Shown here one piece after another: positions 3,636 to 58,355 of a stretch of 64,000 nt of DNA. The translations under genes were made by a program, and so were the position numbers. Position 1 is the stretch's first letter; every line of letters starts with the position of its first letter. Origin of the DNA: Bdellovibrio bacteriovorus W (GTDB lineage Bacteria > Bdellovibrionota > Bdellovibrionia > Bdellovibrionales > Bdellovibrionaceae). The notes under the pieces were generated by a model. The model saw only the letters and a list, made by a program, of their open reading frames with translations, did no database searches and was not told the origin of the DNA. The stretch lies in assembly GCA_000525675.1 (NCBI GenBank), contig CP002190.1, forward strand, positions 1,054,001 through 1,118,000, written 5' to 3'.

Positions 3636-4858
3636 ATAAATCCTTGGCCTGGATCGCGTGGCGACTTCTAATGTCTCGAACGACTCTTTTTGGTGGCTCC
3701 GCCCCTCTGGCTCTTGTGGGCTTGGTTTTAGGTGTCGCTGCCTTAGTAGCCTCTATGGCTGTGATGAGTGGTTTTGAAATGACATTGAAGAACGCCATGG
3801 CTGATGTTTCAGGTCATGCGCAAGTTATTAAGAGATCGCGCATCAATGATGACTGGAAAGAACTTGAAGATAGAATTCGCAAGATTGAGCCAACCTTAGA
3901 GTCCTCGGCGCGCTTTGTTTTTGTCGAAGCCGTGATGGCTCATAGTGGAAAGATTTCCGGTGTTCTAGTTCAAGGCGTGGATGCAGATCGACTTGATGAA
4001 GTTTTGAATTTTAAAAATCGTGTGATTGCTGGATCGGGAACTTTAAAAGGGGCCGAGCCCAACGCAGCTCTTATTGGTAAAGGGTTGGCAAAAAAAATGG
4101 GTTTACAAGAGGGCGATCGCTTTCGCGTGGTTGTTCCCGTTGCTGACGCCATTGATCCTTCTAGCTTTCAAAGAAAAGTCGGCCAGTTTCAAGTTCATGG
4201 TATTTTAGATTTAGGTAAATACGAATGGAATGAGCGTTTTATCTTAACTGATATAGGTACAGCTCAAGAGGTTGCGGGGATCGGCGATCGTTACACGGGG
4301 TTGTTGATGAAATTCGCAGACATCAATCATGCCAGAACTGCTGCATTGAATCTTAGTATGACCTTGGGAAGTCCTTATTGGGTCAGGGACTGGAGAGACT
4401 CTAACGAAAATCTTTTTGAGGCTGTTGAAGTTGAAAGGCCCGGGATCTTTTTCGTTGTTCTAGTAATTACCTTGGTTGCTGCATTCAATATTTCTGCGAC
4501 TCTTTTTGTGAATGTTGTTCGACGCTATAAAGACATCGCCATTTTAAAAACCATCGGTGTTTCTGAAAAGGACATCGTTAAAATTTTTGTTTTTCAAGGT
4601 CTGTTTTTAGGAGTCATCGGTCTTGGTTTAGGGTTTTTGTTAGGCTATATTCTCTCGCTTCTATTCTCGTTGGCGCAGTCGAAACTGGGTTTGATAGCCG
4701 GAGAAGTTTATCGCTTGGATTCGATCGATATTAATATCCGTTGGGTGGATTCCATCGCCATTGTCATTGCGACATTATTAATTTGTTTTATTGCGACTCT
4801 CGCGCCAGCTCGTCGAGGTGGAAAGTTAAATCCTGTGGAGGGCTTAAGAAATGAATAA
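3632..4858 (+). CDS. lolC: Lipoprotein-releasing ABC transporter permease, LolC/LolE family
   Basis: Inner-membrane subunit of the Lol system, which extracts outer-membrane lipoproteins from the inner membrane for the LolA carrier. It has 408 residues in the MacB/LolC layout: one N-terminal transmembrane helix (about residues 24-48), a large periplasmic domain (about 50-265), and three C-terminal helices (about 270-400) ending in the conserved APARRGGKLNPVEGLR. Start is GTG, overlapping the prfB stop (GTGA), with GAGG 11 nt upstream. Only one LolC/E-type gene precedes lolD, so the transporter may be homodimeric (LolF-like) unless a second gene lies elsewhere. Confidence 0.88.
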   Translation: MNKSLAWIAWRLLMSRTTLFGGSAPLALVGLVLGVAALVASMAVMSGFEMTLKNAMADVSGHAQVIKRSRINDDWKELEDRIRKIEPTLESSARFVFVEAVMAHSGKISGVLVQGVDADRLDEVLNFKNRVIAGSGTLKGAEPNAALIGKGLAKKMGLQEGDRFRVVVPVADAIDPSSFQRKVGQFQVHGILDLGKYEWNERFILTDIGTAQEVAGIGDRYTGLLMKFADINHARTAALNLSMTLGSPYWVRDWRDSNENLFEAVEVERPGIFFVVLVITLVAAFNISATLFVNVVRRYKDIAILKTIGVSEKDIVKIFVFQGLFLGVIGLGLGFLLGYILSLLFSLAQSKLGLIAGEVYRLDSIDINIRWVDSIAIVIATLLICFIATLAPARRGGKLNPVEGLRNE

Positions 4859-5537
4859 TGAAGAAGTCTTTTTAAGAGCGGTTGATATTCATAAATCTTA
4901 CGAACAGGGTTCGGGTAGTTTAGATATTCTGCGTGGCGTGAGTTTAGACATCGGCAAAGGAGAAGCTCTTGCAATTCTTGGGGCTTCCGGTGCTGGCAAG
5001 AGTACACTTTTACAGATCATGGGAACTTTGGATCGCCCTTCAGCAGGTCAACTTTTCTGCGAAGGAAGAGATCTTTTAGCTATGGGTGATGAAGAGCTTT
5101 CCCGTTTTCGTAATTCTGAAATGGGTTTTGTTTTTCAGTTCCATCATTTGTTAGCAGAGTTCAACGCGCTCGAAAATGTTATTTTGCCAGCAAGAGTGGC
5201 AGGCGACTCTTTGAAGGAAGCTAAAGAGCGTGGCGCTTATCTTTTGGAATTTATGGGTCTTGCTGAAAGACAAGATCACTTCCCCAATCAGCTCTCTGGC
5301 GGGGAGTTGCAGCGAGTGGCCATTGCGCGCGCCTTGATGCGTCAACCTAAAATCCTATTTGCTGACGAGCCTACCGGGAACTTGGATTCTCAGACCAGTT
5401 TAAAAATTCAAGATCTGTTTTTCCGTCTTCGCGACGAGATGAATTTAGCACTTGTCGTGGTGACGCATGATCTGACTTTTGCGACGAGGTTTCCCAAAGT
5501 GTATCAAATGAAAGACGGCCACTGGAGCGGGCGCTGA
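4851..5537 (+). CDS. lolD: Lipoprotein-releasing ABC transporter ATPase LolD
   Basis: Cytoplasmic ATPase that powers lipoprotein release with LolC/E. It is 228 residues with Walker A GASGAGKST, Q-loop FQFHHLLAEF, signature LSGGELQRVAIARAL, Walker B ILFADEPTGNLD and switch histidine VVVTHD. The HHLL stretch after the Q-loop is typical of LolD/MacB ATPases. It overlaps the permease gene by 8 nt. The last three codons and the stop (AGC GGG CGC TGA) are also the left arm of a dispersed hairpin repeat (5526-5653), so the C-terminus may have been set by insertion of that element. Confidence 0.93.
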   Translation: MNNEEVFLRAVDIHKSYEQGSGSLDILRGVSLDIGKGEALAILGASGAGKSTLLQIMGTLDRPSAGQLFCEGRDLLAMGDEELSRFRNSEMGFVFQFHHLLAEFNALENVILPARVAGDSLKEAKERGAYLLEFMGLAERQDHFPNQLSGGELQRVAIARALMRQPKILFADEPTGNLDSQTSLKIQDLFFRLRDEMNLALVVVTHDLTFATRFPKVYQMKDGHWSGR

Positions 5538-5653
5538 AAAGGGTCCGTCTGACTGCGTTGTCAGGCCTCGTCCTCACTCCGGCGTACATTGAGTACGCCT
5601 ACGTTGCGGGCGAAACCTTCCGCCTTGCATACGAACCCTTTTGAGCGCCCGCT
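5526..5653. repeat. Structured dispersed repeat, copy 1 (after lolD)
   Basis: An 84-bp core (5547-5630) is 79/84 identical to the core at 58202-58285. It contains three hairpins: CTGAC/GTCAG (5549-5564), GGCGTAC/GTACGCC (5581-5599) and GGCGAAA/TTCCGCC (5609-5624, one mismatch). The core is enclosed by inverted arms 5526-5548 and 5631-5653 that match at 21 of 23 positions. The arms overlap the end of lolD, including its TGA stop. The arm sequence is different in copy 2 but is self-complementary there too. No ORF in it looks real. Confidence 0.85.
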
Positions 5654-5960
5654 TGCGAAGTGTTCGTGTGGGGTTTGTTTTTTCCTCATCTAGTTTGTGG
5701 TTCCAATTTTTTAAAAAAGTGACGGTTGGGTATTTAAGCACAAGGATTCTCCTCGTTGCCGTTTTGTTTCATTGCCCACGGCTCATCGTGCTTAATTGTT
5801 GGGCGACAGAGAGTTGGCTTTCTGCTGCGACTGGCAAGAATTTCAGAGCTAAACCGAGTATAGGCTAGACAGGACCTTTGTCTTGCGTTACGATTCCTGA
5901 ATTAGTTTGTAAGTATCGGTAAATCTTATGGATTTCCAAAAACGACTGAGGATGTAGGTC
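5654..5960. other. Gap before bamA with a nested inverted repeat
   Basis: No convincing gene. It holds TTTTTTAAAAAA at 5707-5718 and a perfect 8-bp inverted repeat, TTAAGCAC (5734-5741) and GTGCTTAA (5788-5795), enclosing a smaller GCCGT/ACGGC pair. It could be a structured bamA leader or a regulator site. I could not define a promoter with confidence. Confidence 0.4.
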
Positions 5961-43409: not shown

Positions 43410-43495
43410 TGGTGCGGGTGGAGGGACTTGAACCCCCACGGACGTGAATCCAAGGGATTTTGAGTCCCTCGTGGCTACCATTACACCACACCCGC
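43410..43495 (-). tRNA. tRNA-Leu (anticodon CAA)
   Basis: 86 nt including an encoded CCA end. Acceptor stem GCGGGTG/CACCCGC, D arm with GTGTAATGGTAGC, anticodon stem AGGGA/TCCCT around loop CTCAAAA (anticodon CAA, reads UUG), a long class II variable arm, and T arm with GTTCAAG. Confidence 0.96.
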
Positions 43496-57731: not shown

Positions 57732-58181
57732 ATGCAAAAGATCAATGTAAAAATTAAAAAATTAAGCAACTTCCGTGGCGAGATTCCTCAATACCAATCT
57801 GCAGGTGCAAGTGGTTTTGATGTTCGTGCACAACTAGCAGGTCCCGTTCTTTTGAATCCAGGAGAGAGAGCCCTTATTCCCACAGGTTTAAGTTTTGAAA
57901 TCCCTGTAGGATACGAAATTCAATGCCGTCCACGCAGTGGTTGGGCAGCGAAGAATGGCCTTTCTGTTTTAAACACTCCAGGCACTATTGATGCTGACTA
58001 TCGCGGTGAAGTAAAAGTTATTCTCGTGAACCTTGGTAACGAAGCTGTTGCTATCAACGATCAAGATCGTTGCGCACAGTTCGTGATCGCTCCTGTCATT
58101 CATGCAAACTTTGAAGTTGTTTCTGAGCTTGCGGAGTCGGAGAGGGGAGCGGGAGGGTTCGGCTCCACCGGTCACCGCTAA
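57732..58181 (+). CDS. dut: dUTP pyrophosphatase
   Basis: 149 residues, normal for the trimeric enzyme. All five motifs are present: SGFDVRA (1), PRSGWA (2), GTIDADYRGE (3), DRCAQFVIAP (4) and RGAGGFGSTG (5). It hydrolyses dUTP to keep uracil out of DNA and supplies dUMP for dTMP. GGGAGCTTGAG precedes the ATG. The last base of its stop codon is the first base of the repeat arm at 58181. Confidence 0.96.
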   Translation: MQKINVKIKKLSNFRGEIPQYQSAGASGFDVRAQLAGPVLLNPGERALIPTGLSFEIPVGYEIQCRPRSGWAAKNGLSVLNTPGTIDADYRGEVKVILVNLGNEAVAINDQDRCAQFVIAPVIHANFEVVSELAESERGAGGFGSTGHR

Positions 58182-58308
58182 GAGATCGGTGAAAAGCGGG
58201 TGTCTGACTGCGTTGTCAGGCACCGTCCTCACTCCGGCGTACATTGAGTACGCCTACATTCCGGGCGGAACCTTCCGCCTTGCATCCACCCACTTTTGAC
58301 CAATCTCT
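58181..58308. repeat. Structured dispersed repeat, copy 2 (after dut)
   Basis: Core 58202-58285 matches the core after lolD at 79/84 positions, with three hairpins at 58204-58219, 58236-58254 and 58264-58279 (all perfect here). Arms 58181-58202 and 58287-58308 match at 19 of 22 positions. Two of the three mismatches become G-U pairs in a minus-strand transcript; the third (G opposite G) is the same one seen in copy 1. Confidence 0.85.
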
Positions 58309-58355
58309 CAAGAAAGTGACGAAGAGATCACTAGTAGTGCGTCTAAGCTGCGTGA

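Follow-up and report, generated by a model that had tools for sequence, protein, structure and literature searches.

Bacterial miniature elements are usually viewed as decaying parasites. Several bacterial MITEs have been named (ERIC, NEMIS and RUP), and the CGTC REPs are hairpin repeats without a dedicated transposase, both according to the available text of PMC3733652. IS200/IS605 elements undergo single-stranded DNA transfer at the replication fork, as described in the accessible part of PMC6006769. Predicted short RNA elements of Geobacter metallireducens, named Gmet_R1###, were reported in 2009 as 24 intergenic copies with a central palindrome, GRCGTAGCGCTGCTACGCC, one of them lying between dapAB and dapL and common to G. 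sulfurreducens (PMC2700814, available portion).

The repeat family described here has a unit of ~125 bp and occupies 48 places in the 3.0-Mb genome of Bdellovibrio bacteriovorus W, all with one polarity along the replichore. Two copies lie in the window, that is, the whole 64,000-nt stretch that was analysed (contig CP002190.1, positions 1,054,001 to 1,118,000 of the forward strand). Their 84-bp cores (5547-5630 and 58202-58285) had been pointed out by a sequence-only reading and are indeed identical at 79 of 84 positions; as stated there, the arms differ between copies 1 and 2, yet in each copy the left arm pairs with its own right arm. The same reading knew of only two copies, a number superseded by a blastn search with copy 1 (33 matches including the query itself in the genome of 3,006,992 bases, one contig) and by a covariance model, R1, built from 28 of the first 30 own copies with two insert-broken copies left out. 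At E 0.01, R1 returned 67 rows in this genome. Opposite-strand shadows account for 17 of them and 67-base partial matches for two, leaving the 48 places, 40 of which score >88 bits. The features of the two window copies are the following.

4851..5537, plus strand: gene upstream of copy 1, a LolD-like ABC ATPase (best model TIGR02211, 267 bits, below the cut-off of 308)
5521..5657, minus strand: element copy 1, whole R1 match (141.6 bits on the minus strand, 37.3 on the plus strand; the rod-forming strand is the minus strand)
5526..5548, plus strand: left outer arm of copy 1, overlapping the last codons of the upstream gene
5535..5537, plus strand: TGA of copy 1, serving both as stop of the upstream gene and as the conserved TGA of the element; the G of this triplet forms one half of the conserved G-G mismatch
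5549..5564, plus strand: local sense-strand hairpin of copy 1 with loop TGCGTT, belonging to the competing fold; its pairing covaries
5581..5599, plus strand: apical hairpin of copy 1, GGCGTAC...GTACGCC, common to both folds
5631..5653, plus strand: right outer arm of copy 1
57732..58181, plus strand: gene upstream of copy 2, dut, dUTP diphosphatase (NF001862, above cut-off)
58176..58312, minus strand: element copy 2, whole R1 match (135.5 bits on the minus strand, 31.8 on the plus strand)
58179..58181, plus strand: TAA stop of the dUTPase gene, directly after which the outer stem of copy 2 begins
58236..58254, plus strand: apical hairpin of copy 2, seen in predicted folds

Folding of both copies is better than that of their shuffled versions on either strand, with z of -5.8 (plus) and -7.2 (minus) for copy 1 and -6.4 (plus) and -6.9 (minus) for copy 2, and 0 of 200 shuffles as good. 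The three hairpins first seen in each core are found on the plus (sense) strand, where they stand within the outer stem; this part of the earlier description does not extend to the minus strand, which forms a single rod. On the sense strand the hairpin form is the best fold of both copies, the wobble pairs of the rod being lost there. An Rfam 15 scan of the window gave no family for the element, its sole match being a tRNA gene (43413-43495, minus strand), and a lax Rfam search of four element loci returned nothing above a gathering score.

At 1e-6, R1 has matches in 20 of 29 genomes (own included) and 5 of 11 genera, hence in 19 of 28 relatives, and in a sample of the phylum it matches 74 of 290 genomes and 43 of 162 genera. 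A pattern scan of GTDB found at least 118 stretches carrying the pattern beyond the phylum; among the 80 stretches listed are Rokubacteria, Methylomirabilota/NC10, many Deltaproteobacteria, Desulfuromonadales, Syntrophobacteria and Pseudodesulfovibrio, together with single MAGs named Chlamydiae, Peregrinibacteria and Firmicutes. The fetched distant loci hold 122 pattern matches, 115 with enough upstream sequence, and the right arm matches in 101 of these 115. R1, trained on own copies only, matches 34 of the 36 distant loci given to it (36 of the at least 118 pattern stretches); the two that fail, L204 and L236, are both without a right arm. Seven distant genomes, all picked for a pattern match, carry the element in high copy in every case, from at least 34 to at least 146 copies each, with scoring limited to 150 candidates in any one genome. 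One exact pattern gave four matches in IMG/VR, none with a right arm within the 170 bases printed, and carriage by viruses was set aside on these matches.

Some variation surrounds the family. A weak-scoring R1 variant, shorter (~115 bases) or divergent, occurs in the own genome at 865222, 2255839, 2352865, 2398868, 2659572, 384112 and 386222, with partial neighbours at 2255631 and 2255746; it too lies behind stop codons with the polarity of the family, and may be a sister family. The first 20 bases past the right arm form a T/G-rich tail (about 70% T+G in 107 copies), which separates tandem copies and may be part of the mobile unit. Short REP-like hairpins are nested in some copies (L337 compared with L162, L344 with L066, and own L018 and L020), where they sit at or near the CGTTG loop or replace the middle part; own L018 and L344, the latter from another species, have a similar type of insert.

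The compensatory change in a folded single strand that the sequence-only reading had proposed is borne out by alignment A1 (28 own copies), in which 97.5% of cells pair and 28 of 40 pairs are double-changed, with 138 double-changed cells. Shuffled alignments average 84.7% pairing, 14.3 pairs and 31.1 cells, and 0 of 500 reach the observed values, for a structure derived from A1 itself, the alignment tested. Neither non-complementary arms nor chance-level covariation, the two outcomes named beforehand as refuting, was found when the own copies were put to this test. In 107 copies from the own genome and related species, the top 13 covarying column pairs all fall on the rod. Read antisense to the gene, the 37 rod pairs hold 3402 Watson-Crick, 394 G·T and 54 A·C cells. 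This imbalance of wobble pairs shows that, relative to the upstream gene, it is the antisense strand on which the rod is tuned. Once five fixed wobble columns are excluded the counts are 154 G·T vs 44 A·C and, copy by copy, G·T exceeds A·C in 68, the reverse holds in 4 and neither in 35; in other groups, 34 loci with 41 copies yield 89 G·T vs 14 A·C on an alignment fitted to the model. The C-A excess on the plus strand (G-U on the minus strand) noticed in two copies is also true family-wide, and so is the conserved G-G mismatch, which reads as C·C on the antisense strand and is retained by 104 of the 107 copies. Folding, too, favours the antisense strand in 104 of 107, whether RNA or DNA parameters are used.

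These counts bear on the proposal that one arm is copied onto the other by fold-back template switching, with no selection on the fold. Such switching, known as quasi-palindrome correction, would yield arm agreement and could depend on replication direction; however, G·T and A·C should then be equally frequent on a given strand, and neither the totals of 394 vs 54 nor the copy-wise 68 vs 4 (35 ties) bear this out. In the window the plus-strand GC skew runs from +0.09 to +0.13, so that the usual leading-strand mutation bias, C-to-T, would give the opposite wobble excess, and the fast change predicted by switching is at odds with shared cores that are mostly nearly fixed. We regard it as very improbable. 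Nor is it necessary to suppose that the element copies its flank as an inverted repeat: at one site, where the copy overlaps the coding end and the element-free relative is readable (L320 vs L345), the arm is not derived from the gene.

Exchanging arms between copies allows an alignment-free comparison, for which 102 of 107 copies had all anchors. The outer stem gives z of -33 to -35; for the rod parts z is -23 and -19 (antisense) and -9 to -10 (sense), and a competing 5′ hairpin reaches -11 (sense) and -7 (antisense). Kinship of copies is ignored in these values, and three control pairings with the same kinship remain low, between +0.1 and -2.2. When the segments of the competing 5′ hairpin pair with each other they exclude the rod, and given these z values against the low controls, it appears that both folds, though mutually exclusive, are maintained. 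The competing hairpin is missing among the strongest covarying column pairs of the 107 copies, which in our opinion is due to register shifts.

A copy was counted as stop-adjacent if the distance from the stop codon of a sense frame (80 codons or more) to the conserved TGAAA is between -3 and 15 bases. Of the own copies with this anchor 24 of 36 qualify, and among relatives 56 of 71 distinct copies do, the anchor being missing in 12 of the 48 own copies kept and in 3 relative copies; the own context set, a first pass, keeps the opposite-strand shadows L114 and L118 and leaves out some neighbouring tandem copies. In the mirror-image control, which asks for a convergent gene at the right arm, 2 of 34 own copies and 1 of 70 in relatives qualify. 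Among the 12 own exceptions, several either are the second member of a tandem pair (distance about 143-154) or stand after a canonical terminator (70-129); L100, at 9 bases from the stop, fails on frame length alone, L099 lies 16 bases away and L123 lacks a clear gene upstream. Among 89 usable copies from distant groups, 67 are stop-adjacent, the commonest distances being 8 bases (32) and -3 (16). In the distant copies at -3 the element's own TGA serves as stop codon, like copy 1, whose arrangement recurs in other copies as well.

Stop-adjacent placement would also be expected of sense-strand intrinsic terminators of an elaborate type, and the copy at L328/L360 occupies the place of the relative's canonical terminator. 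This identity is nonetheless highly improbable: T5 or longer occurs within 30 bases of the right arm in just 27 of 107 copies, copies are found after canonical terminators too and between two genes near the next start (L068), and the fold is tuned on the other strand.

Taking dnaA as origin, all 48 of 48 own copies are co-oriented with replication. Across eight genomes 213 of 232 copies are, including G007, where the bias is missing (4 of 9 copies). That count used 184 of the 223 rows listed for seven relatives; the 39 left-out, weaker rows hold two shadows and 37 others, 31 of which obey, bringing the total to 244 of 269. Leading-strand ORFs of at least 150 codons amount to 138 of 242 in G006 and 99 of 173 in G002, together 237 of 415 (57%), as counted in fetched stretches, two of which overlap by 5 kb, and leading-strand ORFs in the window amount to 37 of 50 (74%). 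Since co-orientation of copies exceeds this ORF bias, the replication bias is more than a gene-strand bias, though not absolute.

Both the orientation to replication and the difference in folding between strands agree with a transfer of single-stranded DNA at the fork, and from the two we infer a single-strand route. Single-strand transposition as known uses the lagging-strand template, which here is the sense strand, whereas the better fold is on the leading-strand template (antisense). The orientation bias may instead reflect survival: a hairpin is more easily lost from the lagging-strand template, and copies that place their weaker fold there would persist.

That the element moves is seen between two close, collinear relatives, G002 and G006. 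When 28 element loci of G002 were aligned with 28 fetched element loci of G006, 13 found a counterpart, two of these 13 at the same place; for the 27 partnerless loci (15 in G002, 12 in G006) the stretch predicted by synteny was compared, some with no flank or one flank, and twelve locus pairs, L335 among them, were inspected. Four sites have both flanks aligned and the element absent in one species. At L309/L353 it stands behind TAA and ahead of a terminator, at L310/L347 and L167/L370 behind the T run of a terminator, and at L068/L359 between two genes, about 16 bases ahead of the next ATG. At five further sites (L320, L323, L159, L171, L328) the gene end aligns, the element is missing and the remainder is replaced. 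The other species holds an internally deleted copy at L319 and another repeat at L315, and further pairs present an internal deletion (L314/L340) or a nested hairpin insert (L162/L337, L066/L344). A constant target-site duplication is absent from the four clean sites, which show TAA..TAA, a T run, TAAGGA/TAAAGGA, or nothing. Element absence at single sites could be loss rather than gain; the empty sites between close relatives nevertheless indicate movement, in agreement with the mobile family suspected by the sequence-only reading. A different repeat, AAAAGGTGCCTGGT...TTTTT, lies directly behind a stop at L353 about 15000 (opposite L315), an element-free site, and also near L319/L355 and L323, beside other element copies.

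Ten of the 13 shared G002/G006 loci were compared for conservation, leaving out L162 (insert), L318 (duplicate) and L314 (deletion). At eight of the ten, cores differ at 6 of 871 positions and 700-base flanks at 974 of 11089, or 688 of 10406 without one flank (286 of 683) that is probably not homologous, so the core is about ten times more conserved than its flanks. At the other two the whole variant has changed (21 and 28 of 108). An in-place double change, T-A to C-G, is found at L308/L331. More distant species share sites as well, in 21 clusters of related upstream proteins, one of which combines two fetches from a single G005 locus, while a few consist of weak paralogues; the dut site is shared with G017, at 80% protein identity. 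Near-unchanged copies at most sites common to the two related species suggest that the cell makes use of the element.

Purifying selection on the cores at 8 of 10 shared sites is in keeping with a host structured RNA family (3′-end or antisense) spread by ordinary duplication or recombination, in which the folded RNA is what is selected. The tuned wobbles (394 G·T vs 54 A·C), the conserved internal loops and the two strand-specific folds are expected of RNA too; however, presence and absence at clean sites, tandem copies and variant replacement need a copying mechanism, and we judge this explanation unlikely, if still a serious one. Sense placement and purifying selection speak for a gene-end role of the element, and on the host side it probably shapes the transcript end, or the ends of antisense transcripts entering the gene from downstream.

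A REP-type transposase had been suggested as the mover, a suggestion that the genomes do not favour. The Y1_Tnp profile (PF01797) has no match in the own genome and is present in 24 of 28 relatives. When 24 Y1 loci of relatives were searched with R1, the element was found on both sides in 0 and on one side within about 0.5 kb in 3. Copy number does not track Y1 genes (copies/Y1 genes: own 48/0, G017 75/1, G012 31/10, G009 1/2), and G008 and G016, like the own genome, carry elements with no Y1_Tnp match. A RAYT was first attractive as mover, with 24 of 28 relatives positive and three Y1 genes beside copies, and was dropped after the Y1 loci had been searched and read. Y1 genes of relatives carry repeats of their own, such as GGGGTATCGGTCA, AAAAGGTACCTGCTTAC, AGGTGCCTG...TTTTTACACC and GGGACCCTCGCCC, several families being found in the genus; loci with such flanking repeats are L380 and L382-L386 (G012), and others among L390-L398.

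The element might still be a REPIN or TIR repeat whose mover is a Y1 transposase of the RAYT/TIRYT type. REPINs are inverted doublets with compensatory arms that lie between genes (PMC3116915, in its available text), and Y1_Tnp is widespread among the relatives, with a copy close by at 3 of 24 Y1 loci. The presence of elements in three genomes with no Y1_Tnp match, the 0 of 24 Y1 loci flanked on both sides and the 12 of 20 loci read that have other repeats such as GGGGTATCGGTCA on both sides make this quite unlikely. A reverse transcriptase was rejected as mover, RVT_1 (PF00078) being present in 7 of 29 genomes and absent from the own. Likeness to integron attC sites (a gene followed by a bottom-strand hairpin) was also rejected: the ends are GTT...AAC and the copies are dispersed. 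The attC consensus is RYYYAAC...GTTRRRY. With neither Y1_Tnp nor RVT_1 in the own genome, and relatives' Y1 loci lacking the element on both sides, no mover was found.

We incline, with roughly even confidence, to a non-autonomous, REPIN/MITE-like hairpin that travels as single-stranded DNA at forks, settles behind stops or terminators and is then kept as a gene-end element. In such a scheme the folded single-stranded element would move at the replication fork via a putative enzyme, would settle directly after a stop codon or terminator, in sense with the gene and mostly with replication, and would then be retained as a structured 3′-end element of that gene. Against this reading stand the strand of the better fold, the missing mover and the lack of a consistent target-site duplication, the absence of bias in G007, the 74% of window ORFs that are themselves on the leading strand, and the different variant held by 2 of 10 shared sites. 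A wider version is possible but tentative: that a mobile family crossing phyla is also a host gene-end device, with two exclusive strand-specific folds, stop-adjacent and replication-coupled delivery by a putative enzyme, and strong purifying selection afterwards.

The family has the same core in several phyla and is mobile yet conserved at most shared sites examined, its place being set by stop codon, gene strand and replication fork together. This combination offers a handle on what moves hairpin repeats without a dedicated transposase, and another on the function of a structured element directly after a stop codon. R1 makes the family searchable, no Rfam 15 family having been found for it in the window and the four loci.

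As for known systems, the Geobacter short RNA elements are probably an earlier sighting of the family, judging from their central motif and from 38 R1 matches in a MAG with contigs labelled geobacteraceae. Their GRCGTAGCGCTGCTACGCC, given in a supplement legend, resembles the apical hairpin of the present family, and G017_L144 contains GACGTAGCTCTGCTACGCC. The available portion of PMC2700814 calls them putative RNA elements and does not analyse mobility, strand, stop codon or replication. Our literature searches, which included sequence words, gave no other relevant match. TIR repeats of the TIRYT type have long inverted arms and are dispersed (PMC3733652, available text), as is the element, and most relatives have Y1 transposases; the repeats flanking Y1 genes here are, however, other sequences. 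MITEs, as presented in the accessible part of a review (PMC10969869), share with the element a length of 70-300 bp, non-coding content, hairpin formation and a location near genes, and the element likewise shows insertion polymorphism between relatives; unlike MITEs, it showed no consistent target duplication at the four clean sites, and its arms covary instead of being fixed terminal repeats. The REP foot GT[AG]G is found within 16 bases on the left in 3 of 36 own copies and 7 of 71 copies of relatives, and on the right in 0 and 7. With REPINs and their RAYT (PMC3116915, available text) the element has in common that it is mobile and extragenic, made of inverted halves with compensatory arm changes, that is, an inverted doublet hairpin dispersed between genes. 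It departs from them in that no cognate Y1 enzyme was found, in its preferred orientation to gene and replication, in the conservation of most shared copies and in the same core being present in several phyla.
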